Translations under genes and position numbers: made by a program
Source of the DNA: Polytrichum commune
Taxonomy: Eukaryota > Streptophyta > Polytrichopsida > Polytrichales > Polytrichaceae
Length of the DNA: 64,000 bases
Reading direction: 5' to 3'
Assembly: GCA_950295325.1 (NCBI GenBank)
Contig: OX485803.1
Coordinates: forward strand, 45,709,554-45,773,553
Notes under the pieces: model-generated
What the model saw: the letters and a program-made list of their open reading frames with translations, nothing else
What the model was told of the DNA's origin: nothing
Databases searched by the model: none
Shown here: in pieces, positions 26,353 to 56,246 of the stretch
Position numbering within the stretch: position 1 is the stretch's first letter
Layout: each line of letters begins with the position of its first letter

Positions 26353-28145
26353 ATGAATGCTTTGAATGTAAAAAAATGGCTTAATGAAGTAGCCCATAGA
26401 AGTGTGAGTGAACTTATGAAAATGGGAATGAATAAAAAAGAAGCATTAGAATGTCAACATTGTGTACCATCATACTTATACGTCCCGCAAGAAATATGGC
26501 CAAATATGAATGACCTTGGGGAGCATAATTTTCATCACACTCAAATACCCTCGGACATTGATGTATGTGATGGATTTGTCATGGACTATCATATTGCTTT
26601 GTTCTTTCAAATAGATGATATGCTCATCCCCAAAGAAGAAGCATTAGACAAAATGACCAAGAGATTGGATGATATGCAAATCTTACTTAGGGATGAGATA
26701 AATGACCCCATAGCAATAATATGTACACATGGGGGAAACAATGGTCGGGTCATGTAAAACTTCATCTTAAGAATATGAACACCAAAAGACTACATGACCA
26801 CCAGGATATCCTACAGGCAGAAATGATTGTCATCCATAAAGCACTACAAATCATCAATACCCAATATCCAAATGAACCCGCATATATATTCACCGATAGT
26901 CTAAATGTACTATATCTACTCAATACACAAATTAAACATTCCACACTACACAATAGTCACCCAGACCAAGTCACACTTGCCTCCATAGTACAACTTCTCC
27001 AAAACCGCTCCCAACCAATCACATTATATAAAGTTAGAGCACATGTCAACATAGACGGTAACGAACAAGCAGATAAATTAGCAAAAGAAGGATTGGACAT
27101 TACTCATAGAAATGCCACACACCCATACGAACACGCCCATGCCACACCTTACTACTACCAAAAAGACGAATGGCCCTCCAAGATAGATACACCAGACAAA
27201 GGCCCCGTTAGATTTCTAGAAAAATAAATAAAAAAATATGACAGAATAAACAACCTAGAAACTATGGCCTCACAAACCCCCAATATATGTAAATGGACAG
27301 GTAATGAAGACATTGACAAGGAACTTTCCAATGAATTTTGGAACAACCCTGCTATCACGGACAAGCAAAAATCATGCCTTATTAAATTTCGCACCGGAAC
27401 ATACATGGGCCAAGCTAGAAAACAAACCTTCTTTGGTAGACAAAGATTCCCCACCATCACCTGCCCTATTTGTAATTCATACGAACCTGATACATGGCTA
27501 CATGTACTACTCACATGTAGGCAACAACATATACACTCACTACACGTCAAAAGACATAACAAAACAGTATGGGAAATCATAAAACTACTAATCTCTTCCG
27601 AAAAATCCCGGTGCTACACTCTCATGAACGTTGGTACCTTTAATGACCACCCCCAAGAAAACACCGTCCCGAATTGGCTCTTACCCTGCACATGCGGAAC
27701 CCAAAGATGCCACTGTAACTCTCGATTTAGACCTGACATTCTTTGCGTTAAAGGGCTCCCATACCAAAATGAACATCCCACAATTATAGACCAAACTCTT
27801 ACCATACAAGCCATTGAAAGAAAACATTGCTGCTCTAGGCTGGAAAATCGATCATTGTTATTACAGCAAGCGCTAGAGCCGCAACACACATTCCATCAAT
27901 GAAACTACTTGAAGACAAATTTAAACTACCTATGCCATCCATCTGAAACACCTTCAAAAACATTAATACCATTGCCATACAATACGCCATGTCCATCCTC
28001 CTCCACAAAAGAAGACTAGAAAATCACCAACCTCTACCACAAATGCAAGACCCCCCCTAGACGACTCAAAAGTTGTATTATGAAAAACGCCCTCTCTACA
28101 CAACAATGAGACAATGGCCTGACGTCCAAAGCCCGCACAAAACAA
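26353..28145 (+). pseudogene. Decayed LINE 3' half: RNase H, zinc knuckle, restriction-like endonuclease
   Basis: Three frames follow each other. 26,353-26,757 is an unrecognised linker. 26,721-27,227 is an RNase H domain: QAEMIVIHKAL supplies the Glu, YIFTDSLNVLYLL the Asp, and KVRAHVNIDGNEQADKLAKEG the C-terminal His/Asp motif. After an in-frame TAA at 27,225 the same frame continues to 27,902 with a zinc knuckle (CPICNSY, then HVLLTC) and then RPDILCV followed by TIIDQTLTIQAIE. That last pattern fits the PD-(D/E)xK core of a restriction-like endonuclease. RNase H plus a C-terminal endonuclease points to a LINE of unusual domain content, such as the Dualen/RandI type (inference). Stops and a frame change between the first two segments make it a pseudogene. 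The tail reaches about 28,145. Confidence 0.75.
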
Positions 28146-32631: not shown

Positions 32632-35600
32632 ATGGGGAAGAAAGGAAAGTGGCTCAGTGCTGTCAAAAATGCATTCCGCTCGCCAAATGAGGAAAAAGAA
32701 TTTGAAATTTCGGATCCCACAGATCTGGACCTTGTTGGAGAGATGCCTCCTCTTATAATGGTAACTTATTCAAAACTTCTTGGTTTTGACATTATCTTTA
32801 ATCTCAACCACAACATTATCTGCTGAAATGTTCTGGATATTGTTATCATCAAGAAGGCTAAATCTAGTATGATATTACTCATGCTCACACGGTGAGGTTC
32901 TTTAGGATAATGGTACAAAAGCTATAGTAACTAAAACTATTCAGAAGTTTATGAACATTTAGTAGTTGAGCCAATGTTAGGACTGCAGGGATGACTGGAT
33001 ACTTAATCAGTCACCGTGGTCGTCCTAGTGTCTCGGCCAGCTAGTCTTCCATGTGCAGTGAAGAAATGTGATATAAAATTCTAGGGGCCTATTGTTTAAA
33101 AAGATAAGGGGGTTTCTTAGCATGACCCTTGAGAATAATAGTAGGTTTGTTGCTTAGTAGGTACTGTTGCCAGATTTCAACTCTAGATACAATAACCAGC
33201 TTAAATGCAAGTTCTACCTCATTGTGCTACCTTAATGAGCAAAGCCATCTTCTACTTAAAACCTTCATAATGATCTGTGGGCTTCTATCTGAAAACCTCT
33301 GTACAAAAAGATATCATTATAATCCCTTCAAATTCAACAAAGATTTTATGTGACTTTTTGTGTTTGAACAATGTTTCTTTGCTGGTTGTTTCTTTCCAGG
33401 AGAGGCCAAAACACAAGGTGAGGCGATGGAGTTTTGGCAAGTCATCCCATTCAGATGAGAGAGATCCAGACAAGAGAGGGGAAGACTTTTATTCAACAGC
33501 TTGGAGTAGTCATAAGGGAACTCCAGTGCGCCAGTCCAATGGGATGTCCATGTATGCATCAGTTGAAGAATGGGCAGCTGTTAGGATCCAAACTGGCTTT
33601 CGTGGTTACTTGGTATGAACTAGACTCCATAAGTAGTTTCTGTTTCGTTGCAAAGTACATGTTGACACGAGATCAAAGTTAATGCGTCTTCTATATCTCT
33701 TCTTTTTCCCACAATACACACTAGTGTACTCATCTTTGCCCACATCCGTCTTTACTCTCTGATGGATGCTTCCTACAGACAACTTATGATTTTCTCGTCA
33801 GTTCTTTTTCTGCCACTGATTAGCACTATCCCCAAAGTAAGGTAAGGTGCTACTTTATTTTCAGTTAGTTTGTTTGGCTTTCACAGGCAAGGCGAGCTTT
33901 ACGTGCCTTAAGGGGCTTGGTCAGGTTACAAGCCTTGGTTCGAGGCCATACGGTGAGGCGCCAAGCAACCATCACCCTCAGATGTATGCAATCCCTTGTT
34001 CGAGTTCAGGCCAGGGTAAGAGCACGGCGAGTACGAATGTCAGAGGAAGGTCAAGCTGTGCAGAGGCAAATTTGGCAGCGGCGGCAGCAAATAAATCCCA
34101 GGAAGTCTGTGGTGAGAACTTGTTGTCTTCAAAACTATTTACAAACCATCATTGAGATTTGGATTTGCCTTGTAGCAAGTGTAACATCAAGGACATAATT
34201 GATTGAAGACTAATGACTTAAGAAAGCACCTTTGTTTGTGTTCTGTGTATCTTCCTCTTATTGTATGCATGTCTCTGCTTTGAGGTCCTCATCCTCTTGT
34301 CTAGCAGGTAGACATGTAATGCAAAGTATTTGTTTCTTCTTTGTTCAGTGGAACAATGCAAATAGCTAGGGATCTGCATTGCTCTACATGACCTTTGACA
34401 GATGAAAGACAATGCCAGAAAGATAAGTGGCAGCAACGTTTTCTTGTGCGCTTTTTTGTAATGGGTTGGTTGATTCACATATTTATATCACTTTGACTTC
34501 TGGGGCTATGCACATATGGAGTCAGTAGATGGGAACAAAGAGAGCATAACAATACTAGAAAATTCAAGCTTGATTCGAACATAAAAGATAAAACTGACCT
34601 TAGATGAATATCAAGAGCACGTTGGTGCATGTGTTCATTCACCTTCTTACAACACCAACCACACCATCTTTTGCCCTTTGCTCTTATTGCCCTTTGACCA
34701 AGTTGTCTTTCAACGTCAATGCTATTTACAGGAAAGCTTGACTGAGTCCGGGTGGAACGACAGCGTTGCAAGTGTGCAACAGATAGAGGCAAAGGCGCAA
34801 GAAAGACAAGTGGCAGCATTGAAGAGAGAGAGGGCTTTAGCCTATGCACATACACAACAGGTTTGATTCAATATTTGGTCTCATGATTTGTATTCAATAA
34901 CACATGCATCACATCCACGTAAAAAATTCCTTCCATTGAGTTTGAGGTGGTTATTAATATGAGTTGCTTTATATTAGGTAGAATTGTGTTTGAATGTTTG
35001 TCGTCAAGTTTGGTGTTACCTGATTTCTGTTGAATTCTCCTTTCAGCAACTCTGGAGGGCACCGCCAAAACAGGCTGTACCATTGTTTATTGACTGCGAG
35101 CCTGACAAGCCACACTGGGATTGGAGCTGGTTGGAAAGGTGGATGGATGCAAGGCCATGGGAGAATCGGATTTTTGACAGTAGCTCTGTATCCAAACAGG
35201 TTATTGACAGCCAATCCGGCAAACAAGTCATTGATAACCAATCTGGCAAGAGTGTGGATGGAGCCATCACAGCTGACACAAAGGAGCTTGAATCTGCTAC
35301 AAAGCAGCAGAATGCCTACACTAGGCGCAAGAAGCCAATTCCACATTCTGGTTCTCTTCGTAAGAGTGATACTTGGTCTACTATACAAGGACTACATCCA
35401 TCACCTCATGCAGGACCAGGTCTGCCCAATGGAAATGGAATAGTGAACAATCCACCAAATGTGCTGAGAACAAGTAGTCATGGACATATAACCCCCTCTC
35501 CATCAAGCTACAAGCAGTTGTCATCTCCTGTCAGCCCCCAAAATATAGTTCGACAGGAAGATTTAGAAGAGGTTGGAAGTGTAACATCAACAACAGCTAG

Positions 35601-36057
35601 ATCGACATCAAATGTGCCAATTGCAAATCCACAGTTTGGAACAAGGTACAGCAACTCTGGTCCAATTCGGGATGGTACGATCCGTGATGATGAGAGCATG
35701 GCAAGCTCTACAATCGTACCAAGCTACATGCAAGCTACTCAAAGTGTGAGGAACAAATCAACACAAACCTCAAAGATCAATGCCAGGTCTCGGAGTCAGC
35801 CCAAGCAACGGCCAGGTACTCCTGACAAGGATGCTGCCAAGAAACGCCTGTCATTTATTCCAGACAGAGTGGCAAGTGGGCCCTTGGTAAGGCCTCTCAA
35901 GCCAGGAACCCAAGCTCAAAGGAGTCCAATTGGCAAAGGTTTTGCTGGCATGAGTCGTGAAAAGTGGCCTGCAGTTTCATCACATGCCACAAATGATAGC
36001 AGCACCTTGGCTAATGAGCAAGTTCTTACAAATGGACACCCTGAAGCAGGTCAATGA
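32632..36057 (+). CDS. IQD: IQ67-domain (IQD) calmodulin-binding scaffold protein, 5 coding exons
   Basis: IQD proteins bind calmodulin through repeated IQ motifs and act as scaffolds at microtubules, plasma membrane or nucleus. Exons 32632-32760, 33400-33612, 33887-34111, 34732-34860 and 35047-36057 are all phase 0 and join to 568 codons plus TGA. The N-terminus [18 protein letters not shown] is typical of the family. The IQ67 domain spans about residues 96-165: [13 protein letters not shown], then after the intron [20 protein letters not shown] and [20 protein letters not shown]. The phase-0 intron inside the first IQ motif is the conserved family position. [19 protein letters not shown] (residues 258-276) and a C-terminal DUF4005-like region (about 485-560, with KKRLSF) complete the picture. 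Basic composition fits the family. Length and splice sites look intact. Confidence 0.96.
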
Positions 36058-39789: not shown

Positions 39790-40132
39790 ATATGTGTTGA
39801 TATATGCTCATGGGAGGATCGTATGCCTTGCTCTTCGAGTGTTCTTTGAGCATGGTCCGACGAGGATGGAGCCTGAGCCCGCAGCGCAATCCACCGCTGC
39901 AGACACAAGGGCCGTGTGCAGCATATGCGGCGAAAGCCCGAAAGCCCAAAACCTCGAAGACACAAGACAAGATGCAGCCACAGCCTGCCACAAACAGGGA
40001 AAAACGAACGAGCGAAGCACAAATCTGAGGTGAACTCCAAGCACCAGCATGCACATAGGAGAGCTAACGGAAGAGTGGCACCAGACACAACATCAGCACA
40101 AACATCCCACAAGAAATAGCGTGCGAGAGGCC
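39790..40132 (+). mobile_element. LINE-like sequence left of the MULE insertion
   Basis: The CA- and GC-rich sequence ends exactly at the left copy of the 10-bp duplication (gcgagaggcc, 40,123-40,132). Its composition resembles the segment beginning after the right copy at 56,247 and differs from the AT-rich sequence before 39,790. It is best read as the interrupted 5' part of the LINE-like element to the right. No ORF function is assigned. Confidence 0.5.
40123..40132 (+). repeat. Target-site duplication, left copy (gcgagaggcc)
   Basis: The identical ten bases recur at 56,237-56,246, directly outside the right terminal inverted repeat. The length fits Mutator-superfamily insertion. Confidence 0.88.
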
Positions 40133-40187
40133 GGGAAAAGCTATTTTGCGAGCGGTGAGCGGTGAGCGGTAAGTTTTCTAGAATATT
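40133..40187 (+). repeat. Left terminal inverted repeat of the MULE
   Basis: It begins gggaaaagctattttgcgag and carries three copies of the heptamer agcggtg/a before ttctagaatatt. It pairs with 56,190-56,236. Confidence 0.87.
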
Positions 40188-41757
40188 GAAATTTTGTCAG
40201 GTGAAACATGCCCTATGGCCGTGGTGTAGAGCTAACTTTTGAAATATTTATTGACAAATTTATTGACAAAAAGAACCTATAACCGTGGTGGAGGAACCTA
40301 TATAGTATTTGCTTGCACCTTCTTGGAGGTTCATGATATTACCTGACCACGACAATTTCATGACAACCTCTAGCAATTTAGCAAGTAAGATTCCATCTAT
40401 TGTGGTGAGGGAATCTCCAAACCCCAATGCTGCAGGCCTCACACGTAATGCCCATGAAGACCCATCCGTTTGTATGTGTGTGTATATATATATATGAGCA
40501 TAAACTTAAAATGTTGAAAGAAACTTAAAGTAAATATTAAAGAAACTGAAAATGTTGGAAGTGTTTACAACATGTTCCTCTAACAACAACACCTTACTAT
40601 ATACCACTCAAATATAGATGGTTATTTAAGAAGAGCAATTGTGTTGAACATAAAACCTAGGATGATGTCCATATTTTAAGCACAAGCCTTCTTGGTTTAA
40701 CACTCAACACAACTAGGAGGTCTCGAGTCATCATTTAAAAAAATTAAATTCTTCACTTTGACTTATTATAACCTTTGCATCTCAACTTCAATTTTGAAAC
40801 ATGAAATAAAAAATTTCTTGGTTCTCAGTCGCTAGCCAAATGGGAAAATTATGATCCAATCCAATGACCACAATTCTATGTGAACTTGGAAGTTTTTGAC
40901 ATTAAAATTGCATATTCTAACCTCATTTGGAGTATATCTATGATCATGAATCTAAAGTAAATTATGTCTTAATAATTAAAAACCTAAGCGATATTAAACA
41001 ATAAACTTTTTGTCACCTTCAACTCATAGTATTGCCATAATGTTTGATCCTTGATTGGGATTAAAGTTTCCTGACACCTACTAAAGGGGAGAGCAAAGAA
41101 ACTAATTATCATGTAGAACATGTGAATGATTGGTCTAAACCCAATTAACACCTTAATCAAGATCAAAGACCTTGAATTATTCTAGTAGAATTAACTAGAG
41201 ATGGATCTATATGTACTAAAAGTTTGTTAGACCGTGTTGAAGTATGCAAGGGGAAGATATTCTTAAGCATACCAATGTCAAGTGTCGTTGGTGTACACTT
41301 TAGTCAACTTGTAGACCATTGTGTAATATAGGTGTGCACTTCATATCATTGTGGAACATACTAATGCCGAGATATTAGTAAAGACACTTGAATGCCAAAT
41401 TTCATGAGGTGACATTAATGGTGAGGTTGATGGTGAATTATTCAACCCAACATTCGCCTAAAATCGTAAGCAAGCATTGAAAAAGTATATGAAAACGATA
41501 ATAGAAGAATAGTGGAAACCCTTAAATTTCAAAGAGAAGGGTATGAACTAATAGGCCGATTATGGAATTAAGTGAACAATATCAGAAAACACGAAGTCAA
41601 AAGTTAACCTAAATCTGCAATTTTATATATGCAATCCCATAAATTCCGAAAGTAATACAAATACAATGAATTTCATGCGGAATGAGTGCACAAACTGAAA
41701 AACCAACGGAAGAAAAACCGGTATATTAGATAGTACACAGACATTCACATGAAGCTA
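40188..41757. other. Left subterminal region of the MULE, no gene
   Basis: AT-rich sequence between the left end and the 3' end of the methyltransferase gene. A piece of dispersed family A lies at about 40,600-40,830 (ataccactcaaatatagatg, then cttcactttgac on the other side), so a smaller element seems nested here. No coding frame is supported. Confidence 0.5.
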
Positions 41758-44700
41758 TTACATCAGATCCGAATCACTGTGATCACGTGATGATGAAGAC
41801 ATTCTAGAATCACTAATATATGCATCAGAGGAGGCCTGACCATCTGATTCTAAAGCTTCTATATCCAAAAACTCTAAAACTCTTCCCGGATGATATTTAG
41901 ATGTAAAAGTCTGATAAGAACCTCCAGCTAGTTGATTAGCAATAACATTTGCATATGTAGGAAGTTGCCAAGACTTTGGAGGGCTGGGATAGAATTTAGG
42001 GTCACAAAAAAAAGGCCGGTGAATAGGATAGCTCAATTTATCGCATCTGCAAATGCCAATGGTACCATGTTCATAACTCAACTTTAGAAGAAATGACAGC
42101 AAAAAACATAACACTGGTAAGAGAATTTGTGGACCATACTCACTTAGTAAACCGAGATCTCTTCACAATCCTCTCAACGGGAATATCTTCACCCTCAGGA
42201 TCCTCTACACTGGTGACACGGTCTTCAAGAGTGACTTCAGAGGCTGCTCTAGAGATAATCAATGGAGCAAGTATGGCCTCAAAAATATCTACATCAGCCT
42301 CTAATGCTGCAATGTGACGGTGCACATTGCGGCATGCATGAATGGAAGATCCTGCAAATAAAGAAGTTGGAAAAACTTAGTACAAAAACCACTATGAATT
42401 TTGTAGAACAAAACAATATTAACGATTAACCAACTGAAATGGAAGATTACAAAGACATACCGGTCGCTGCCGTGCAGTCTAGAATAATATCCCATGGGGA
42501 GCTACATGCTTCAATTAGCATTTGCATTAGAAGCACGGACTTTTCACGAGGCCCTCGCCATGGTGTGGATCCATTAGTTAGCTGGTCCTCACGAGAGACC
42601 AAGTTCTGGAGAATATCATCCCGTGCAACATCCACCCCATAAGGATCCAATTCAGGGACATGGCGAAATGAAAACTTCGATGCAGGTGACCCCGGCACGC
42701 TCCTGACCGCCAATGAAATACCGAACCTCATGGTCTATAATGTACCAGACATAAAGATCAATATTACTTTACAAAGTGAACAACAGAACTGCGTGAGTAT
42801 AATAGTTAGGTGGGTCTACACTCAGAACTACCTCAAGGATGAAATTGAAACTGAATGCGGTGATCAGAAAGAAGACTTAAGCTTTATCTTATAGTTGATG
42901 CTGGATTTATTGGAGATGTAAGATGAAGGCGGTTCATTCCCCACCACTCTTTCCGAATTGCAAAACCATACGATTTGCAATATCCAAGAATATTGGACTT
43001 CGTACTCATGCGAAAAGGGTGAAACAAAATAATTGCCCCGTCGTCGTGCAGATGTTCGTTGGCAAAGTCAAAGAGTGGTTGTAACCACTCTTTCGATTCT
43101 TGATTCCAAGCGGGAATGGACGACGGTGGGTTTGATATGCCAGGAACAAGAAGACCTTCCGGTATATCTGCAAGAATCAAGTCCAAACAGGGATGGTCAT
43201 CCGGAGAACCCTTGTAGTGCCGGGTTTTGTCTTTTGAGTGCTGCACAATCAAAGGACAACCATGTTTGGTGTTAAAATAATCCTCCTTGCTTTGTACATT
43301 GCCTAGTACTAGCCCTTAAATCAAACATATCTATACTCATTACTAACCTTATATAATACACAAATCTAACCTCTTATCAGGTTACACTTGTTACCCACAT
43401 ATCTAACCACAGATCAAAGTACCTTTATGACACCCATATTCAACCTCATATCATATTGACCTTATAACATGCGAATATAACCTCACATCAGATTGTACTT
43501 ATAACACACATATCTAACCTCATATCACACACATATCTAACCCGATATCAGATAACAGATATAGCCCAGATATCTAATCTCCCATCAGATTACAGTAATA
43601 TCACCCATATTCAACCCCAGTTCAGATAGACCTTACAACACATATATCTAACCTTAGATCAGATTACACTTCTAACAAACATTTCTAACATCATATCAGA
43701 GTACACTTATAACAAGCATATCTAGATATCAATATCTACTATGATTGTAGGTAGTAGAGTTTGAATACCAGAAAATGTGTCTCGGGACCGAGACACTCAA
43801 ACTCGGCCCTGGAAAATCAGAAATGTCTAAGCTTAAATCAGATTACCCTTATACCCACAATTGCAAACTAACCTCACATCAGTTTCACCTTAATACTAGC
43901 ATATCTAGACCTCACATCAGATTGCACTTGTAACCCACATATCTAACCTCACATCAGTTTGACCTTAATACTAGCATATCTAGACCTCACATCACATTGC
44001 ACTTCAAACACACATGTTTGGTGTCAAATCAAAGTACCCTTATACCAAGTAAATCTAGATTTGAATATCAAATATCATTGTAGGGTTTACAGTTTGAATA
44101 CCAGAAAATGTGTCTCGGGACCGAGACACTCAAACTCGGCCCTGGAAAATCAGAAATTTCTAAACTTGCCTCATATTACCCCAATACCCAAAATTGCAAA
44201 CTAACCTCATATCAGATTGCACTTGTAACCCACATATCTAACCTCACATCAGTTTGACCTTAATACTTGCATATCTAGACCTCACATCATATTTCAGAGA
44301 AGGTAGAATTCAGAGAGGGCGGGGATTTCACTTAAACAATGTTCCGACTAAAAAAGTTCAAAAATTAACATGACACCTCACCATTCATATTTCAACTCCT
44401 AATTTCCACAAACAAAATGGTACAACAAAACAAATGGCCGATTGCAAGCACAAAACAAATTGCCGAGTCCATTGAGGGCTCAGCTCGCACTCCACATGGT
44501 GTTTGGGTCCCGCATAAACTATACCCTACCAGCCTTACTCGTCAGATCCATGATTCGGTCCCGAAAAAAATTATGGCCGATTACTGAAATATGAAAAATA
44601 GTACCTACTGAATGTTCAATGTGGACCACATTGAAATGCATAAATTTAAATGCAAACATGTTATGACAAAATTAAGGAAGAGCAGTACCTTGAGCATGAA

Positions 44701-47700
44701 TCTTTTCAACTCGTTGTAGGAAGGGGTGAATTCCTCCGTGTGACCGCCAAGAACGTCCTCCATTGAGGCGTTGAGAATGAGTTCTTGAATATGGATCTCG
44801 AGCTCCTCCCCCGATGTCAAAATAGGAATTTGACTCAACTGCTCATAGGAGGAATTGCGTTTTGTTCCTCTAGAAAATGTTGGAGCATGAGAACCAGATT
44901 CATACGTTGGACTTGGAGCAACGGGACTCTTACCTTCTAGCTCAGAATGGGGGTTCATCTTCTTTTTCCCCTTCATGGTAGTCTTCTCCAATGATTTTTG
45001 AAGTTTTTCCATCTCTTTCTGTGCGGCTTTCTCCTCTGCTTCCTTTACTCTAAGGGCCTTCTTCCTATCCTCTTCTAGACGTCGGGATAGGGCCTTTGCC
45101 CTCTCATGCTCGTCTTCTATGCCCTGTAAGTCAATCATCTCAACACCAGATTCTCCAACTGCCTCCCTTGACTTCCTAAGTTCAGTTTCAAAGGAAGGAG
45201 TGAAACTAGGAGCATAGTCAAGGTACCAACCACCTCCAGTGAGATGTGAGGTTGACCATGTACGCTGTTGATTTGCTGAGAACATGCACGTGGAGTTAGA
45301 CCTGTCAAGCCATGCTGAGAGGAATATAGGGAGATCTTCTTTTGTTATTGTTCCTTTTGCAAGGAGCTCGTACTTGAAATACCTGCGGGAAAGACACAAC
45401 TCATCATTAAATACCTTGCAATTGACATAGCTGCCATATTAAAAACCAAAACACTATGCCAAATCAGATGTCACTAACTAAGCTTATATCAGATTACCCT
45501 CGCATAATATTACACTTATAACACACAAATCTAACCTCATATCGGATTGACCTTAATACAAGCATATCTAGAAATCACATTAGAATGCACTTATAACACA
45601 CATATCTAGCCTCATATCAGAGTACACTTATACCAAGTATAGGTAGATATCAATAGCAACCATGTTTGTAGGTAGTAGAGTTTGAATACCAAAAAATGTG
45701 TCTCGGGACCGAGACACTCAAACTAGGCCCTGGAATTTCAGAGATTTCTAGGCTTATATGAAACTAGGCCCTAACTAAGCTTATATCAGGTTACCCTAAC
45801 TAAGGTTATATCAGACTCCCCTAACTAAGATTATATCAGATTTCATTACCTAAGCTAATCTCAGATTGCACTAACCAAGCTTAAACCAAACTACCCTAAC
45901 TAAGCTTATATCAGATGTCACTAACTAAGCTTATATCAGATATCACTAACTAAGCTTATATCAGATTACCCTCACATCATATTACACTTATAACACACAA
46001 ATCTAACCTCATATCGGATTGACCTTAATACAAACATATCTAGAAATCACATCAGAATGCACTTATAACACACATATCTACTATGATTATAGGTAGTAGA
46101 GTTTGAATACCAGAAAATGTGTCTCGGGACCGAGAGACTCAAACTCGGCCCTGGAAAATCAGAAATGTCTAAGCTTAAATCAGATTACCCTTATACCCAC
46201 AATTGCAAACTAACCTCATATTAGATTGCACTTGTAACCCACATATCTAACCTCACATCACTTTGACCTTACTACTTGAATATCTAGACATCACATCATA
46301 TTTCACTGCAAACACACATCTCTACCCTCATATCAGAGTACCCTTATACCAAGTAAATCTAGATTTCAATATCAAATATCATTGTAGGGTTTAGAGTTTG
46401 AAGACCAGAAAATGTGTCTCGGGACCGAGACACTCAAACTAGGCCCTGGAATTTCAGAGATTTCTAGGCTTATATGAAACTAGGCCCTAACTAATGTCAC
46501 TAACTAAGCTTATATCAGATATCACTAACTAAGCTTATATCAGATTACCCTCACATCATATTAAACTTATAACACACAAATCTAACCTCATATCGGATTG
46601 ACCTTAATACAAGCATATCTAGAAATCACATCAGAATGCACTTATAACACACATATCTAGCCTCATATCAGAGTACACTTATAAGAAGTACCTGTAGATA
46701 TGAAACATTGCTAACTAACCTTATATGAGATTAAACTTATATCAATCATATATAACCTCATATCAGATTTCACATATAACCCTTAATACAACCAAATGTA
46801 GAGCACACACCAGATTTCACATATAACACAAATTTCTAACCTCATATCAGATTACCCTAATACCTCAAAGTGCATACTAACATCATATGAGAGTACACTT
46901 ATAACACACATATAGAACTGTAGTATGAAAGGAGAGAACTCACCGAAAGATAACTCTTCGGACAATCAAGTCTGTCCCGTTAAATCCCTCAAATTCGTGA
47001 GTTTTGTTAAAGGCCTCCTGCCCTCGGAAGAATGTGGGAAACGCGTTGTCCCATAATTTCATTCTACAGTCCTCGATGTATGCAACCAAGGTCAAGGGCT
47101 CGCTGGGTAGTGCAAAGTTGATAGCAAGTCTGTCTTGGCACAAAGTGTCTTCAAATATAATGGAAGCCTGATCGGATATCTGTATATACAGAGAGTGAAT
47201 ATGAACAAGAATTTGAGCAACATCGATTCATATATTGAAATAACCGTGAAACCAAGAGAAAGACCAATTAATGTAAGGGATCAAATCAAGTAACACCGAA
47301 CTAAAGGGTACATAGGGGATTATGTACTCACTCCTTCCCAAAAACATGCCTTGGCTAGGAATGCCTGCAATTTGTCCTCATTGGTGGGCTTGGTTGGCAG
47401 TTTGCGAGCCTCACGTGTTGATGAAGAGGAATTGAAATATTCCAACCATTTGATTTTACAAGCGGGTGATGATTTTGCAGTAGTGATCAACTGCAATTTC
47501 TCTAAGTTGAGCTCGGGTGCAATTGAGTTAAGAGTATAGTGACGCGCAATCTGTGACCCATAGAGCAATATATTAAGATAATGGAGATTAATGAATTACT
47601 TGAAAAATGTAGAATGGGTTTTAAAGTAGTGGACATACCTCCCGAAGCCATCCATCTGTCAAGTCTGGGTTTGCCACACAAACTAGTTTTGACATTTTCT

Positions 47701-50700
47701 TATGAAGTGCCTCGGCTCTCTTTGAAGCACCGACCTTCATGGCGGCTGCTTTTTCAGCAGCAGACACCTCTCCATCCGTTTGCTCAAGAAGTTGACGAAC
47801 GCCTTCATCTGCAGCAAGTGCCAGTTCGTGCTGGAAAAGGATTACCATAGTTAGTTTGTAATCAAACAACTGCGACAAAAAGGTCTTATGAAAGCACATA
47901 AAGAAACAAAAACATTCAAACATCAATTATAAATACCAAATGTTGAAAGGGATTAAATATAAGAGTAATCACATCATCAAGCATCAACATCACATCATAC
48001 TTGGAAGATGAAGCTCGTGAATACATGTAGATTTAATGAATACCATGTCTTCTTTGAAGTTTGAGATTTCTTGCACCTTTTAATGTCAGAGGGAGTCAAA
48101 ATATCTTGGTACTGTTCGAGCGGCATAAGTCCATACTTCTGCACCCTAAATAGAGTGTGAGCTGTGTTTGTCTTCACGTGAGAGTCTTCCGTATGTCTAC
48201 AAGTAACAATCATATATTAAAGACAAGAACAACATAATATATGTACATAGATGAAAACCTTAAAAAATGGACTTAAAAAACTTACTTGTTGATATTATGC
48301 ATAACTTGCATAACAATACCAATTTTTCCCTTGGTGTCAAGGAGGATGCTATCCACCAAAAAATGCCAGGACTCTTCTGTTTTGTGAAGTCGTTCAATAT
48401 GGTTCAACCAAGCCTGCCGCCTATGGTTGCCGTCACAAACAAAGAACATCAAATTCGTAAAACCGGCTAACTCTGGAACGGACAGAAGAAAGGAGTTGAA
48501 TTGTTCATTTTTGGCACTCCAAATAGGACCCCACGATGCCTTATCAGCCTCAGTAACCTCATGTGTTTTCCCTTCTTCATTTGTTATTGTCACATAAAAT
48601 ACCGAGGCACCCTCTCTATACCCATGCACAAACTCCTGCTCCAATTTAGCAAGATCACTTGGGAGAGTTGGCCTCACCATAGGCATGGCCAACATTCTGC
48701 ACAAGGGAATAGGGAACCTTGAGGAACTCAGGGGTTGGACTCTCAGTCGAGAAATCGTGGCAACAGAATTAAGTTTCTGTCGGGTCCTGATATCATCTTC
48801 ATCCCCTTCATATGGATCTCTATCTCCAAGCCCCTCTTCATCCTCATCCTGACCCTCTTCAGAATAGTCTAGAGAAAACAGAGAAAGAGCAGGAACATCC
48901 TCCATTGCGTTGTTCTCTACCTGCAAAATATATGTACTAGTTAATCAAGGAGAGAACATGAGCTCAGCTGCCATCAGTTATAAGTGTATGTGGTATTATT
49001 TGACCATCAAAAGACATGTCTCGGGACCGAGACACTAGTACTAGGCAGAAATATTCAACTCATGAAATAGTGATCCTTACACCGGATCACCCTCTTAGCT
49101 CACATTGCAAATTTACAATATATCAAATTACACTTATATCAGGTTACACTTATATCAGATTACACTCATATCAGATTACACTTATAGCCCCTAAAGTCAT
49201 AGTGAGGTGGAAGAGTTTGATAGTCTCAAATAGTCTCTCGGGACCGAGACACTAGAAATCAACTCTAAAATTCAATTTCAAACCTACCTATCCTTACAGA
49301 TATCAAACCTTAGATCAGATTACACTTCTAACAAACATTTCTAACATCATATCAGAGTACACTTATAACAAGCATATCTAGATATCAATATCTACTATGA
49401 TTGTAGGTAGTAGAGTTTGAATACCATAAAATGTATCTCGGGACCGAGACACTCAAATTCGGCCCTGGAATTTCATAAGTTTCGAAGCTTAAATCAGATT
49501 ACCCGTATACCCACAAGTCCAAACTAACCTCATATCAGATTGCACTTGTAACCCACATATCTAACCTCACATCAGATTGCACTTCAAACATAAATGTTTG
49601 GTGTCAAATCACAGTACCCTTATACCAAGTAAATCTAGATTTGAATATCAAATATCATTGTAGGGTTTACAGTTAGAATACCAGAAAATGTGTCTCGGCA
49701 CCGAGACACTGAAACTCGGCCCTGGAATTTCAGAATTTCTACGCTTACATCAGATTACCCTTATACCCAACATAGCTAACTAACCTTAGAAAACCTAACA
49801 CTTGTAACCCACATATCTAACCTCACATCAGTTTGACCTTAATACGTCCATATCTAGACCTCACATCAGATTTCAAGAACTCCAAGAACGACACAAAACC
49901 CTCACCTTCACCCTCAACCGTCAACCCTCCCCCTCACCAGAAATGTCTCCCTCGGCAGGTATAGGTGTCTACCTTATTTCATTTCACAATCTTGGATCTC
50001 CGAACACTATGCAAAAAAATAAAATTCAGGGTATTTTTGTGTGGGACAACGTACCTCTTCCCCGAATTGTTGTTCTTCATTGTCCATTCTTGCTTCGCAA
50101 AGATCACCTTTATCAGCGCCTTGATCGAATTCGCCAAGGATCTGTTAAGTGTATATGTCCGGTGCTCATTAGCTATGAATTTGGCCTTATACAGTGTTAG
50201 CATTTGAAAGACCCCTTACCCTAAACCCAAAACCATTCAAGTCACCAATTGATTACAATCTTTACAAACCTGCTCCTCACTTTGATATGATGTTGAGGCA
50301 CTGGAGGTTGCCTCAGGTTGAACCTGTGTCTGCGTCATTCCCTATTCCAGATACCCAAACCAAACCCAATTCACAATCCCCCACCAAACATAAAATACAA
50401 CATAAAGGAGCCGATACCATTGCCCACACAACAAGGGAATTTAGAGGGTCTCATCTGTTCCAACTATCCGTGATAGAACTTAACATTATGATTGCACATA
50501 TAAAAATTTCATTATGATTGCAGATAAACATCACCTCACTGCCCCCTTTGTCAACTTCGTTGTCTTCCTCCGATACAGGAAATAATACTACTGGAGCTAC
50601 CTCTGAAACATCAAACGTTTTTTCCCCTTTGGAACCTCTACCTGTGCCCCTAGAAGAATTAACCCCTCGTCTACCCATTGTTGTCCGCAAGTTGTACGGT

Positions 50701-50810
50701 GTTCCTAAGCTCCCTCTTGATTCTAACCTTTGCCTTCTCTCAATACGCCTCTGTTTTTCAATAGTCCTCCTAATCTCTCGATCTGCTCTCGCTCTCGACC
50801 TAGTGTTCAT
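41758..50810 (-). CDS. ParB-like / N4-N6 DNA methyltransferase-like fusion protein, 14 exons
   Basis: Exons 5' to 3' (minus strand): 50810-50535, 50341-50270, 50185-50055, 49968-49938, 48920-48286, 48196-48001, 47830-47639, 47550-47332, 47179-46944, 45382-44689, 43240-42893, 42734-42461, 42351-42144, 42046-41758. Every junction keeps frame, giving 1,266 codons. Domains: a very basic N-terminus (1-40); an acidic stretch (about 177-215); a ParB/sulfiredoxin-like segment with FFVCDGNHRRQAW (329-341); a Lys/Glu-rich coiled coil (about 750-800); then a beta-class methyltransferase order. A motif-IV-like ADIPEG (918-923) comes first, then REKSVLLMQMLIEA and the SAM-binding motif ILDCTAATG (1094-1102), followed by ALEAD (1117-1121). 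Motif IV lacks the usual [DNS]PP[YFW]. The donor of exon 11 reads ATAAGA instead of GTAAGA. Without splicing there, the protein ends after two more codons. DNA methylation is the family role; activity here is uncertain. Confidence 0.78.
43320..44310 (-). repeat. Satellite-like array in intron 10 of the methyltransferase gene
   Basis: Degenerate units of about 36-40 bases built on aacctcatatcagattacac and ttataacacacatatct repeat with changes through most of the intron. Two longer blocks carry the 20-bp palindrome. Confidence 0.8.
43777..49709. promoter_or_regulatory. Nine copies of a 20-bp palindrome, candidate protein-binding sites
   Basis: The consensus gtgtctcgggaccgagacac has 9-base inverted arms around GA. 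Copies: 43,777-43,796; 44,110-44,129; 45,698-45,717; 46,119-46,138 (one change); 46,414-46,433; 49,016-49,035; 49,233-49,252; 49,433-49,452; 49,690-49,709. All lie in introns 4, 9 and 10 of the methyltransferase gene and I find none elsewhere in the window. Two copies (49,016 and 49,233) keep the palindrome although the flanking repeat unit has diverged. A binding role is an inference. Confidence 0.6.
45420..46930 (-). repeat. Satellite-like array in intron 9 of the methyltransferase gene
   Basis: The same family of 36-40-base units as in intron 10, plus a run of ctaactaagcttatatcag units at about 45,770-45,965. It includes three palindrome copies and a longer duplicated block. Confidence 0.8.
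49050..49880 (-). repeat. Satellite-like array in intron 4 of the methyltransferase gene
   Basis: Units such as atatcagattacacttat and acccacatatctaacctcac repeat through the intron. Four palindrome copies lie in or beside the array. Confidence 0.8.
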
Positions 50811-51254
50811 CTCTAATAATATTGAAGCAAACAGATCTTATATATCATTGTCAACTCTGTCATAATTAACATCTATTCTCCATCATTATGTTCACATTTT
50901 GGATAATTGTGTTCATATTGGATTTAGATAATTAATCTGCATTTCCTTGATTTATTCCTCTGTTAATCCACACAACATTAATACACTACAATTGGCGGCA
51001 CTAAAACCTATTCTATATAATAGAATCCTGCCATGTCACATATTTGGTGGTTGATAATTAAAGTATTGACTATTATTGTAGTACATTCTTTTCCTACTTG
51101 AAACAGGGTGTCTAGCATTTACATAAATAAACATTGACTATTAATTGATCTAACATGTTATCAAATATTCGCGCATTGGTGTCTACCCTAGGTGTATATA
51201 ATACCCGATTGCTTGTACCCATTCCTTCATGTCATCTCATCATATTCTTCTCCA
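50811..51254. promoter_or_regulatory. Shared divergent promoter region of the two MULE genes
   Basis: The start codons of the methyltransferase gene (50,810, minus) and of the first open frame on the plus strand (51,255) face away from each other across 444 AT-rich bases. A TATA-like string tgtatataata lies about 60 bases before the plus-strand ATG, and tatatat-type sequence lies near 50,838-50,845. Whether one promoter drives both genes is unknown. Confidence 0.4.
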
Positions 51255-54200
51255 ATGGGTACTGACTCAAGTCTCCCAAACCCTGCTCCTTTAGGTTCTC
51301 CTAGTACATCTCAAGTTCACACCACGTTGTCCATCGATGGTTTCGCAGTTGTCAACAACATGAAGATTGACAACCCACCTGACTCCTCAGTTACTCCGGC
51401 GGTCGTGGTTCAGAGTCCACATGCACGGACTCCATCATTGCAAGCGGATGTTGCAACGCTGATAGAGGACTTGTCTACTTTACAGACTCATGCATATTCT
51501 AGAGCAGGGGTTATTAAACCGGGCACGTACTCTAGATCTGTATTAAGGAGTTTCCCACTTCCCAAATGACAGAAACTCGGTTGCGCAGGATGCACTGCAG
51601 TTCATAGTTTAGGGATTGACCATTGTCATAAACATGACGGTGACAAAAATGGCAAAGGGCCCCATAAGCGTCTTTGTCGTTAATCACAATGTAGCATTCT
51701 ATTGTTTGGGATTTATTATTGCAGAGCTACTATCATGCTCTCTACATTATTCGTGGCGGCCGTCATTCTTATGGCTTTATTTGCCAATATATATTATAAC
51801 CAACAATGTTTAGAATGTATGTCTGTTCTTGGTTTCTACTATTTGAAAACAGGTAAACATGACACCTTGTGAGTGTATATGATACGCCCACCTCTTTTGC
51901 TCTATTTATATTGGAATATTATGTTTGAAATAGATATCGGTTTCTTACCTATCTCGGACTTGCATCCAAAAATGGTTTTTCAGCCGTCTTTCAGCTTACT
52001 CTCCATGTCTCTCTATTATCTTCTGAAATTCTGCTTGTTGATACATAAATTACCAGTTTGCACTGTAATTTGTTCCCTCTTATATATTCATGTCATTTCA
52101 ATGTTCACAGTACTTGTTTTGTTCAGAGTTCTGTGGTATACTATGGCCCTGCTTCATGCTGAACCTCATTCTGTTCCGGTCCTCCTTCTATTAGGTGAAG
52201 ACGGTCATGCTATAGTCACTTGTGCAACATTGAGTTTGAGGTTTCAATATCGTGAGGTCACTATCTTTGTCGAAGAAGAAGCTTTTGACGATCATACCGG
52301 TCTAGTTTCACATGCAGTTCGTCAGACTAGAGTAGATAATGACGTCGGTACGTTCTGGTTGCTGAAGCCTGGAAAATATCGTGTATATGGAGTCTCAGAG
52401 TCTATGTTAGAGTGTTCGACTGAACTTCTAACACCTAAGGAGTCGTCCACTGTTAGCATTGAGAGACCAGTCCTGGCTAGGGTCAAAATTGAGCCCGGTC
52501 TAAATACAATATATGAGTTGAGTGATGATTCCGACGGCGATGTTGAATTCCTAAAATAAGAGAGGAAAGTCCCAGCTTCGCTCTCTCCACAAATAGTTCG
52601 CAAGGAAACAACTCCTCCTGTTAATCCGTCTCGTAATCCTGGTCAGTCCAATGTTGTGACAAGTCATGTTGTCAGTATCATTCATTCATTGATGCGCCTT
52701 GGAGCTCGTAAGCGGTCCAAAAGTGTGTTATCTCGAATTAACTTTGATGCGATCAGACTCCAGCAGGTTGATTACCTTCCCCCTCGTTACGATGGGGACG
52801 TTATCTTCAAATTTCCACCTTTAGGTGATCATGGCCAGAATACAAAGGCCAAGCTGCTTCGTGGAATGGATAGAAGGTACAATGGCCATGCTTGGTCTTG
52901 CACAATTACAACCAATATTCAGAATGATCTCAAGCTTTTGTTTCGTACATCTTCTTGTTTGGGCCACCTCCGTTGCGACAATCCTGTTTGTGAGTATCTT
53001 CGGCGAGACCACAGGACTTCCCAAGTGAATGAAACAAAGTGGGAAGGATTATCTGAGAAATTGTTTGAAGTAGGGTCCAAGCCTCCAACTGATTCGACCG
53101 TTGTTTGCAAATCATGTAACGTCCCTCCCACCTGTGTTGCTGTCTGCACTGCCAAGATCTACTATGTTACCGCGACACCTCACATGACGAGGGCTTGTGT
53201 GCACTTAGGATCTCACGACCATCCCGTCAAGTCAGGTGATCATCGGGACTTCATCGATTTGACAAACACCTTGATTGGGGATCAAGTCGAACGCACCCCA
53301 TCAGCCACTCGCTCCGCTATTGTGCTTGAAACTACAAAGGAAGTACTGGGCCCACTCCTCCTTGCTAAAGAAGGTGACCCACAAAAGATCTTGGAGTTGG
53401 ACGAGCTGCAAGTTATTTTCGATCGGTGTAAGCACCTCACCTCGCCCAACATTCGTAACGCAGTCACCACGTTCAGGACTATGCGTCGCTTTGGAGTCAT
53501 GGACAGTATTACCAAGTTACGTGGTGCTAGCAATTGGAGGTTCGTGCAGCAGAATAGGTTTCCAGGGCAAGGAGCGGACATGGAACAAGGTCTTTGTCTT
53601 CAAGATGTCTGAAGTTGGACTGGGCAGCGGAGTCGACCTGGTCAAATGAATGCAACCCGGTGGTGACTTGGAGAACTCCTGGATAATGTTTGACCATGTC
53701 AAACGGGTCAGGTCGTGGACGACAATAGCTTGCCATGTGTACGATTCCACATATTGCCGTGTCATGACCATCGCAGTATGCGACATGCAGTCTGAAGATG
53801 TTGCAGCCCAGTCAGTCGTATGGAAGAACCTGAACGCTCTCATGGCTCAATATGGAGTGGACAAAGTCAATTTTAAAGGTTTCATGGCCGACAGTGCCCA
53901 AGCCAACTGGAATGTTGTTCGAATCATTTACGGAAGTGGAAATGTGTCTGAGAAGATGGTGGATAGAGAGAGGACTTGTCTTTTCCATTGGACGCAGTCC
54001 TTGGAGAAACATACCAAGGCCGATATCCGTCAAGACCTGCAACATCAACATCGAATACTATGCCAGCAATACAAGAATGCAAAATCGATGGCGGAGGCCG
54101 AGACAAAGTATTTGGCAATTCGGGCATGGTGGATGTCATCCGGGGCAGCAACTGAACAAGGTCTACCTCGACTGGAGCTCTGGCTGGCCTTCTGGCATTT

Positions 54201-55876
54201 CCGTTACCGCCAATGGGGTGGATTTATGGAGTTGGTAAGTCTATGCTTCCCTCTATATTTCCTGTATAGTTCCCACTTTATGCTTCAACTACATTGATTC
54301 CGCCATTATTCTAATTCGGACTGTATGGGCATTGCAGGATCTAAGTGAAGCTGAACTAGCGGAAATGCCATCTTGTAACCTTGCTGAATCTATCCACAAC
54401 AAGTGGAAGCAACAATCTGGCGATCGGGGCAGCGACCTTCATGTGGCAACAATCGATGACTTCGTGCGTGCTTTCATGCAGTGCTCAGCATATTCCCAAT
54501 TCCTAAAGGAAGAGAACCCTGGAACTGGACCGTCGAAGGAGGAATTGAAGCTGCGGCGTGCTCAGAGGTCTGTCGTAAAAACAGGAATCTCGAAACCGCT
54601 GCATGAGGCCATCTTGAAGATGCCTGGCGGTGACGAGTGGTGCACCAGGACTCCCCACCTCGAAGGGGAAGAGGTATTTGTTTCTCTGAAGCGTAAACCG
54701 GATACTGCTTTCGGTGACGAACGTGAATCTCACAGGCCAGACAAGATCAGTATATCCCGACCACGCGTCCAAACCAGATCTGCCCGACTGAACGATTCTC
54801 CACCTCCTGTGACAACTCCAGATTCTCCCACAACTCCAGATGAAAACCAACCGCAATTTCCAACACACGACGCTCCGCAGCGGGTGGATCGGCACCACGT
54901 CACCGCGATTGAGGAGACATTATGCAACCCTGCCCAGTGGCACATCGCACGGCTGCCTAAGACATCTGCGAAGGCTTGCTTTGCTCTACAAGCAATCACC
55001 AAGAAGAAGTGCGTCGCTCGGATTGTACAAGACGGGAAGAGCACCGCTGCACCTACCTACTCAGGCCTCATGGATAACTATCGGAAGAAGAGATTGGACC
55101 CTCAAGACTTCTTTTTCTGCAATGACGACATTGAGAGATGCGTTAAGGGTACAAAAAGGAGGTGGGTGGTCTCAGTCCCGAACGTTCCGGAGGTATGGCC
55201 GGTTAAGTTGGGGACCAACTTAACTTGCAAAGAGATCCTGTCTTTAGAAAACGCAGGATTTAGACTGCCCCAGCGGAAGGAGATGACACCTTCCAGAATT
55301 TTTCAGGACCACCCGTTACCTTTGGACTTAGCAAGCTACACGACTCCTGCATATCCGGATGAGTTTCCCACCCGGCGTTCAGGGAAGTTGATTAGGCGCA
55401 ACAAGAAGGCCCCGTCAACAAAACACGCCAATAATTGTGCCTCAGCCCTATCACTGAAAGCCAAAGTGCACAAACTGTGCATGCTTCCAGCCCCTGCCTT
55501 AGGATGCATCGTCTCCTTGGATTCCGGCACGCCCCCAAAGGTTCAGCAATACTACTTGACGATTTTGCAGCTGCCAACATGCACTTGTCCTAACTTCAAG
55601 GACATGGCGACTAAAGCAATTGGAAAAAGGGGTCAATGGGCCAACTGTAAGCATTTGTACTATTTGTTTACTGTAGTCTGTGGTTTGGACTCAGAATCAG
55701 ACACGTTCATTCATGCAGCTAGTTTTAGCTTCAACGAAGTGAAGCGAGTTTTGGAGGGTGGTTTGCTGAAGTACCTTGACTTTAGAGTTTTTTGTTTCTT
55801 TAAAGTAACATATGTATGTAAGATTTGTTATAATCATGATGTAGTGAGACTAAAAGGGCCACTACAAGACATTTGA
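51255..55876 (+). pseudogene. MULE transposase with zinc-ligand clusters and SWIM finger, disrupted
   Basis: A first open frame (51,255-51,569) may be an N-terminal exon. The main coding part runs from about 52,135. Zinc ligands occur in RCDNPVCEYL and ACVHLGSHDHPV, a pattern of the WRKY/GCM type seen in some MULE transposases. The transposase core follows: SGVDLV, WIMFDHVKRVRSWTTIACHV, MADSAQANWNVV and RTCLFHWTQSLEKH. After a clean intron (54,235-54,337) the C-terminal part ends with a SWIM finger (CTCPNF to NCKHLYYL). Lesions: in-frame TAA at 52,557, a one-base frame change near 53,545-53,560, and TGA at 53,647. The protein would have cut and joined the element's ends. This copy probably cannot make it whole, unless unrecognised splicing removes the lesions. 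Confidence 0.82.
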
Positions 55877-56189
55877 CGCACCACATGTATTTCGTTGTTC
55901 CAAAGTTGCGTGACCTTTTTAGAGTACCACTAATTCTCATTATACTGAAACAATACGTGTTTGACTTGAGACAAACCCATATTTATTACTGGTATTAGTT
56001 CCAAATGTTCAATTTAACACCCTAAACCATATTTTTCACTGATACAATAACCATTTTTCATGTATCAGAGCCCTTAATTGTCCACGGTCATAGGTCACAC
56101 TGTTCACTAAGTTTAGAAAAACTAATTACTAAAAATAAATTTAGTCCAACAATACCATAAATTTACTGCTTAAAATAACATTTTAATCA
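55877..56189. other. Right subterminal region of the MULE, no gene
   Basis: AT-rich sequence after the transposase stop up to the right inverted repeat. It should contain the transposase 3' UTR. I see no other feature. Confidence 0.5.
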
Positions 56190-56236
56190 AAATATCTCGG
56201 AAGTTACCGCTCACCGCTCGCAAAATAGCTTCGTCC
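56190..56236 (-). repeat. Right terminal inverted repeat of the MULE
   Basis: The reverse complement starts ggacgaagctattttgcgag and matches the left end apart from one missing heptamer and a few substitutions. Confidence 0.87.
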
Positions 56237-56246
56237 GCGAGAGGCC
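56237..56246 (+). repeat. Target-site duplication, right copy (gcgagaggcc)
   Basis: Identical to 40,123-40,132 on the far side of the element. Confidence 0.88.

Follow-up and report, generated by a model that had tools for sequence, protein, structure and literature searches.

The locus described here raises the question of whether a moss transposon possesses, besides its transposase, a second gene of its own, and what the protein of such a gene would do. It lies in a stretch of 64,000 nucleotides of Polytrichum commune (assembly GCA_950295325.1, contig OX485803.1, positions 45,709,554 to 45,773,553, forward strand), which was analysed at its full length and is called the window below; positions are those of the window unless a contig is named. 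The element in question, 16.1 kb in size (40133-56236), had been described in an earlier note, from its letters alone, as a Mutator-like element (MULE) with a cargo gene that joins a ParB-like and an N4/N6 methyltransferase-like region. The explanation that we consider best, with confidence and doubt evenly matched, is that it would be a damaged copy of a Mutator-like family of many lineages with two divergent genes, the second of which would encode a self-recognition protein that binds palindromes in introns.

A mobile unit with two divergent genes

The element is bounded by inverted ends and by an exact 10-bp target duplication, gcgagaggcc, of which a third exact copy is absent from the window; shuffled sequences gave 0. 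Compared with each other, the two ends have 3 mismatches among the first 5 bases and are then identical over 26 bp, CGGTGAG repeats included. The end core AAGCTATTTTGCGAG has 149 exact matches (74 forward and 75 reverse) in the 408-Mb genome and its reversed control has 0, the copies thus having common terminal inverted repeats, as is characteristic of MULEs. Among the 100 of these 149 places that were listed, 25 neighbouring inverted pairs not more than 130 kb apart were found besides the window, and 20 of them were tested. A 10-bp duplication, within the 8-11 bp of MULEs, was present at the window and at 17 of the 20 pairs (16 exact, 1 with one mismatch) and absent at 3. The pairs tested have a GGGAAAAGC... 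type at one end and a GGACGAAGC... type at the other, with the exception of one pair with two GGACG-type ends and two pairs with a variant end (GGACA, AGATG); these exceptional pairs aside, the GGACG-type end is on the transposase side wherever a transposase was listed inside. The window element is a single mobile unit and one copy of a many-copy transposon. The earlier note had proposed such a unit from the matching ends and the exact duplication, and had made the claim depend on further copies of the ends; the window ends, the 17 other pairs and the core matches bear it out.

Within the ends, two genes diverge, and their exons are conserved in other copies: the transposase gene on the + strand (~52.1-55.9 kb) and the ParB/methyltransferase-like gene on the - strand (48.9-41.8 kb). 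Their linkage was assessed with exon matches throughout the genome, of which 116 were scored for the transposase, the best 150 of 1236 candidates for the ParB-like exon and the best 150 of 1134 for the methyltransferase-like exon. A ParB-like exon lies within 25 kb, on the 5' side and the opposite strand, of 60 of the 116 scored transposase matches (0.44 at random), and a methyltransferase-like exon lies within 40 kb, in the same arrangement, of 57 of them (0.76 at random). Among the listed matches that form close pairs of any orientation, the divergent orientation accounts for 62 of the 72 pairs with the ParB-like exon and 60 of the 71 with the methyltransferase-like exon. After a second round with the E48M lineage, 79 of 216 transposases in the merged lists were paired with a ParB-like exon (random 1.98). 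The linkage recurs across lineages with transposases 52-61% identical, and a ParB exon partner is listed for 14 of the 30 transposases that are 58-61% identical to E48M.

Two groups of copies weigh against this arrangement, as a ParB exon is listed for only 7 of the 79 transposases more than 85% identical to E48M and for 0 of 10 in the 70-84% group. When one copy of the >85% group without a listed partner was opened (C1:57.42 Mb), the gene was present (profile E 3e-57 and 1e-52), and the exon lists therefore undercount. The elements supported by a duplication, window included, number 18: all three parts are held by 10, a transposase and a methyltransferase-like exon by 2, and ParB or methyltransferase-like exons without a listed transposase by the remaining 6; a transposase alone was found in 0 of the 18. 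Two of those six, L102 and L103, are internal deletions in which the transposase has kept its 3' end; e7-e10 are retained in L102, which was read over its full length, and e7 is seen in L103, of which 10 of 12.3 kb were read. A tested end pair that holds a transposase only, at C4:31628836, has no duplication. As a separate observation on this element and a neighbour (C4:31563594-31578593 and C4:31628836-31635476), the sequence just outside an end of one of the two is reverse-complementary to the duplication that flanks the other, which suggests an inverted duplication of the locus.

MULEs frequently capture genes, and the cargo might have been a host gene picked up by chance in one transposon copy, a possibility that the earlier note had connected with ends enclosing the transposase only and with a single-copy host locus. 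The linkage in both scorings (60/116 and 79/216 transposases), its presence in several lineages, the constrained evolution described below and the many copies of the methyltransferase-like gene stand against such a capture, whose probability we put close to nil; it was ruled out on linkage, copy number and selection. The normal gene set of the family is two divergent genes, one for the transposase and one large, spliced and ParB/methyltransferase-like, and the statement that the second gene is part of the element holds copy after copy and in divergent lineages.

The transposase of the window is damaged: stop codons interrupt it at 52557 and 53647, and its frame changes between ~53560 and 53603. 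In the methyltransferase-like gene, a splice donor is AT where other copies have GT; the copy is therefore probably non-autonomous. The designation of the element as a MULE is supported by the 10-bp duplications and the common ends. In Pfam, no MULE model was listed for the transposase at E <= 1 or <= 5, and the DDE and C..H motifs were recognised by eye only. The SWIM finger of the E48M transposase reached E 0.0029 and 17.5 bits, under the Pfam cut-off of 19.6, and a PDB search with the transposase profile gave no match. Eight copies of a 757- or 762-residue transposase frame, situated on six large contigs (e.g. C1:57420097), score 700.7-700.8 bits, and these near-equal scores probably reflect a recent spread.

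Read through e1-e10, the spliced cargo gene encodes ~1,100 residues. Comparisons of near lineages gave ratios of nonsynonymous to synonymous substitution rates (dN/dS) of 0.13-0.20 in the ParB-like exon, 0.12-0.14 in e7, which encodes motif IV, and 0.07-0.23 in the transposase. The higher values of e9 (0.26-0.28) and e10 (0.41-0.49), those of deeper comparisons (e7 0.29 and 0.54, e9 0.42-0.67) and those of comparisons involving E7M, a decayed copy (reaching 0.86 in e4, 0.52-0.75 in the transposase), weigh against constraint. As judged from the ratios between near lineages, the cargo gene is under purifying selection. Window and E15M are 95% identical in the transposase and 75% in e7, and window and E49M 96% in e7 and 75% in the transposase; since the two halves have different closest relatives, exchange of the transposase and methyltransferase-like halves between lineages seems to occur, and the elements seem to be mosaic.

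The protein encoded by the second gene

The Pfam model PF01555 (N6_N4_Mtase) matched the protein of all 5 lineage members searched (E 1.8e-6 and 28.5 bits for that of the window, cut-off 26.7), and in a PDB search CcrM (6pbd) was aligned over profile positions 2-213 (9.6e-6), with DPPYNL of CcrM opposite DIPENL of the profile. In the C-terminal part, motif IV comes before motif I. On these matches the C-terminal half is a true CcrM-type methyltransferase homologue, sharing the model, the alignment and the motif order with the CcrM / DpnA-type beta-class N6-adenine methyltransferases; it differs from them in having mostly D-[ILV]-P-[E/D] for DPPY and in being eukaryotic, spliced and transposon-borne. 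PF01555 has 5 matches in the genome, the three strongest on the small contigs C10, C12 and C23, which are bacterial-looking and whose matches were left out of the plant gene counts, and the other two in copies of the element cargo. In a viral collection, 54 stretches fit the pattern for relatives of the methyltransferase half and none was confirmed.

The canonical catalytic motif IV is [DNS]PP[YFW]. It was read in 32 copies or loci, 14 individually and the others in 18 of 20 further loci (two gave none); these are copies of about eight lineages and not independent, and the pattern for the 20-locus set demanded x-P-x, with the fourth place free. The aromatic residue of motif IV of the beta-class N6/N4 DNA methyltransferases is missing in 31 of the 32 readings. 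D-[ILV]-P-[E/D] was found in 26, and the others are QFPD (3), DQPE, YIPE and DIPY, the last being the only aromatic-bearing one and belonging to L056, whose close copies L057 and L095 have DIPD. Motif I retains G-T-G in some lineages (E48M KAGTG, L051 QCGTG, L056/L057 VGTG) and is eroded in that of the window (TAATG). An active N6-adenine or N4-cytosine methyltransferase that marks the transposon's own DNA, as put forward for algal relatives (PMC12477816), would agree with the CcrM/DpnA-type homology, with the G-T-G of several lineages and with the single DIPY copy; Glu or Asp in place of the aromatic in nearly all readings, together with the eroded motif I of the window lineage, makes it improbable. 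Since DPPY is found without its aromatic in all readings except one, the protein probably does not methylate in the usual way. Of the methyltransferase-like gene of the earlier note, the homology stands, through Pfam and PDB, and active methylation finds little or no support.

The N-terminal part has an invariant G.HR..AW motif (G[ND]HR..AW) across the lineages compared. Its ParB-like assignment in the earlier note found no statistically significant similarity beyond this motif, and the following results weigh against it: hhalign gave E 0.48-0.89 against phage ParB-methyltransferase proteins; no ParB model or structure was among the weak hits of hmmscan in Pfam and hmmsearch in the PDB; the match of PHROG 1033 to the region (E 0.39) was not significant; PF02195 (ParB_N) recovered 0 of 283 merged exon matches and has 4 matches in the genome, all on C10, C12 and C23; and the AlphaFold model of the ParB exon alone (single sequence) has a predicted local distance difference test score (pLDDT) of 41. 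At this poor confidence, the model has a strand-helix order recalling ParB. The ParB identity of the N-terminal half is a tentative lead at motif level.

Prokaryotic and phage fusions of ParB-N with an N4/N6 methyltransferase (L058 on C12; viral L060 and L061) have the same domain architecture. Their motif I region aligns with the element protein (hhalign probability 75, E 2.5e-5), whereas the N-terminal half is not alignable and the three aligned fusions retain DPPY. The fusion encoded on C12 has 501 residues and DPPY (L058 and L059 are loci on the bacterial-looking contigs).

Palindrome arrays in the introns

With at most one mismatch allowed, the window contains 9 copies of TGTCTCGGGACCGAGACA. 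Five of them are in introns of the cargo gene and the other four in the presumed intron 5' of e1; exons have 0, and so do the 47.9 kb outside the element. In the three array-bearing introns, 18 of the 58 CpGs are inside the 126 palindrome bases, and the remaining intron is CpG-poor (observed/expected 0.14-0.36). Genome-wide, TCTCGGNACCGAGA was hit 3,784 times with the strands counted separately (1795 + 1989), compared with 4 + 3 for the reversed control pattern, which is itself palindromic; a fully symmetric site is counted twice here, on both strands. The 100 matches listed reduce to 85 distinct sites, which form 9 clusters on C1, all below 16.5 Mb. For 84 of the 85 (8 of the 9 clusters), the distance to a transposase, ParB or methyltransferase-like match is at most 6 kb, as it is for 1.5% of random places.

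Several further lineages bear different palindromes at the corresponding places, within introns or 5' of e1: TTTCGG/CCGAAA, TGTCGG/CCGACA and GGAAGTGCTTTC-6-GAAAGCACTTCC, the last in E48M (5). E49M has TTTCGGNNCCGAAA (11) and CCTCGGATCCGAGG (5), E57 and L101 have the TGTCGGATCCGACA type (8 and 9; 658 exact sites genome-wide, control 0), and L052 has AAAATC-T-GATTTT (5). The deleted copies L102 and L103, both supported by a duplication, retain their ends and dense arrays of 10 and 17 sites, mostly with a 138-bp period; each array is bordered by the residual transposase end on one side and by the methyltransferase-like exons on the other.

Such palindromes might be passengers of intronic tandem repeats, or RNA or DNA hairpins with a part in processing, as silencing triggers or as origins, and not binding sites of this protein. 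The arrays are in repeat-rich introns, a site as RNA forms an 8-bp hairpin on folding (z -2.7), and outer bases change symmetrically in some cases. We nevertheless regard this origin as unlikely, if still worth weighing: identical arms occur with differing flanks and with centres that vary (6 contexts in E49M, 22 for the TTGGGTCG type), the palindromes differ between lineages, and half-sites form 6-38 pairs per locus around a 2-bp centre, a different spacing being seen once in the nine loci (mean for resampled sequence 0.00). Tandem duplication copies sites, and the independent evidence is therefore the number of different contexts, which is 6 for the window type (four loci), 6 for E49M and 3 for the TGTCGG type.

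Several results weigh against lineage-typical binding sites. Many arrays are tandem repeats, the TCTCGG type having only 6 distinct contexts in four loci, and there are unpaired half-sites, with 11 left, 12 right and 9 paired in the window element and 25, 17 and 13 in E15M. No clear array was seen in L051, L053 and L054, which are of one lineage, in 10 kb each (one weak threefold repeat in L053), and none in L050 or the short loci. The TCTCGG core is common to two cargo lineages, with outer bases GTG...CAC in the window and CCC...GGG in L100; site and lineage are therefore not one to one. Additionally, a palindrome array lies beside a different element type, V612.

The palindrome concerned, TTGGGTCGNNCGACCCAA, has 10,011 sites in the genome (control 0), 38 of them in V612 (L097-L098, C1:612500-631499) and 15 in V1180 (L099, C1:1180000-1189999), around and between open reading frames (ORFs) that match neither the element transposase nor the cargo by profile; five of these ORFs, searched in Pfam, gave no match. 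Across 22 distinct contexts, those of L055 among them, the palindrome keeps its arms GTTTGGGTCG/CGACCCAAAC unchanged and varies in its centre. V612 and V1180 may represent another type of transposon built on the same site-plus-protein design. By eye, one of their ORFs, with IDGQH, and another, with a GDCIFNVFGGS stretch, resemble ParB and methyltransferase motifs. The L001/L002 copy of the present element (C1:463009, C1:475301) sits within an array of this other palindrome type (TTTGGGTCG), and its target duplication overlaps a site.

Self-recognition by a dimeric protein is suggested because the sites are symmetric, form arrays in the introns of its own gene, differ in most lineages read and are dense in deleted copies. 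The protein would consist of an N-terminal ParB/Srx-type region, tentatively assigned, and a C-terminal CcrM-type N6/N4 methyltransferase domain without the catalytic aromatic. Its dimer would bind the palindrome arrays in its own introns, and loading at the arrays would keep the chromatin of the element open (anti-silencing) or mark the element for the transposase, with the methyltransferase-like half as a DNA- or S-adenosylmethionine-sensing scaffold, not a writer. The idea of the earlier note that the element marks or organises its own DNA gains support from the arrays.

Palindrome arrays beside a ParB-like gene also resemble parS or sopC, and could be a centromere-like site for ParB/parS-like partition or tethering of excised or extrachromosomal copies. 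Very little probability is given to this function, as the ParB homology is unproven and no ParA-type gene was seen, though no search was aimed at one. Extended to the whole family, self-recognition would mean that a plant transposon possesses a complete, fast-diverging system, in which a ParB-like and dead CcrM-type methyltransferase protein binds lineage-typical intron palindromes (hundreds to thousands of sites per genome) to tell self and avoid silencing, a design whose origin or spread may involve two or more different transposon types of the genome. For this wider picture, possible as it is, doubt outweighs confidence.

The coordinates of the element are detailed in Table 1. Outside it, the window contains at 34978-36054 a DUF4005 protein, which we take to be the product of an IQD-like host gene, DUF4005 being linked to plant IQD proteins; its presence points to a land plant. 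The RNase H ORF at 26706-27899 and the following ORF probably belong to a non-LTR retroelement.

Table 1. Features of the element and its target site, by position in the window.
Feature	Position	Strand
Target site duplication, left copy, gcgagaggcc	40123-40132	.
Terminal inverted repeat, methyltransferase-side type: GGGAAAAGCTATTTTGCGAG (40133-40152), then CGGTGAG repeats	40133-40163	+
Exon e10, terminates at stop codon	41758-42046	-
Exon e9, methyltransferase-like domain, motif I (second half) and acidic E.D motif	42144-42351	-
Exon e8, methyltransferase-like domain, start of motif I (DCTAATG)	42461-42734	-
Exon e7, motif IV = DIPE (canonical DPPY); splice donor AT, GT in other copies	42893-43285	-
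2 palindromes TGTCTCGGGACCGAGACA (43778-43795, 44111-44128), intron e6-e7	43778-44128	.
Exon e6, charged, probably coiled coil	44689-45382	-
3 palindromes (45699-45716; 46120-46137, one mismatch; 46415-46432), intron e5-e6	45699-46432	.
Exon e5	46944-47179	-
Exon e4	47332-47550	-
Exon e3	47639-47830	-
Exon e2	48001-48196	-
Exon e1, ParB-like region with CDGNHRRQAW motif	48286-48920	-
4 palindromes (starts 49017, 49234, 49434, 49691; last three with one mismatch), 5' of e1, presumed intron e0-e1	49017-49708	.
Tentative first exon e0 (basic then acidic); surrounding ORF conserved in two other lineages	50525-50812	-
Conserved ORF, possible 5' exon of transposase gene	51192-51566	+
Transposase, DDE-type core by eye (FMADSAQANW, CLFHW)	52170-54234	+
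Transposase, last exon, C-terminal SWIM-like zinc finger (CTC...CKH, by eye)	54338-55873	+
Terminal inverted repeat, transposase-side type: GGACGAAGCTATTTTGCGAG (56217-56236)	56206-56236	-
Target site duplication, right copy, gcgagaggcc	56237-56246	.

Comparison with known systems

ParB-methyltransferase cargo is already known from algal transposons, and the proposed palindromic target is new. Sola1-1_Ec32 of Ectocarpus and related algal transposons carry a protein with ParB-like and N4/N6 methyltransferase parts, which was suggested to bind and modify its own element (PMC12477816); the same paper cites Iyer et al. 2011 and Petroll et al. 2025 for such proteins in green and red algae. As a giant DNA transposon with this cargo, Sola1-1_Ec32 is the nearest parallel in gene content, differing in its Sola1 transposase superfamily, its size of 21.5 kb and its algal host, the present host being a land plant. 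The passages of PMC12477816 cited here mention neither palindrome arrays nor a loss of the catalytic motif, which are both features of the moss element, and name no target site, whereas for the moss protein a target is proposed by sequence, in palindromes that differ between lineages. That the catalytic residue is lost, and that this loss is conserved, speaks against the simple idea that the cargo methylates the element. Searches of open-licence papers yielded neither a plant MULE carrying such cargo nor comparable palindrome arrays; the earlier note, too, knew of no described plant MULE of this sort.

The nearest studied parallel is VANDAL/VANC. VANDAL MULEs are likewise Mutator-type, have an extra gene and bear family-specific short motifs in tandem repeats, in introns and upstream, with co-evolution of protein and motif (PMC5735166, PMC10398659); the motif arrays are in the introns of VANC21 and VANB21 and upstream of VANA21 (PMC5735166). 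They differ in that the VANC21 motif, YAGTATTAY, is not palindromic and palindromes go unmentioned in the paper (PMC5735166), whereas the sites of the moss element are palindromic, and in that VANC is described as another kind of protein (PMC5735166, PMC10398659), that of the moss element having a methyltransferase-type domain. The analogy suggests for the moss element a self-recognition like VANDAL/VANC anti-silencing, with predicted binding and a putative function. If true, Mutator-type elements would have evolved sequence-specific self-protection of the VANC kind twice, independently.

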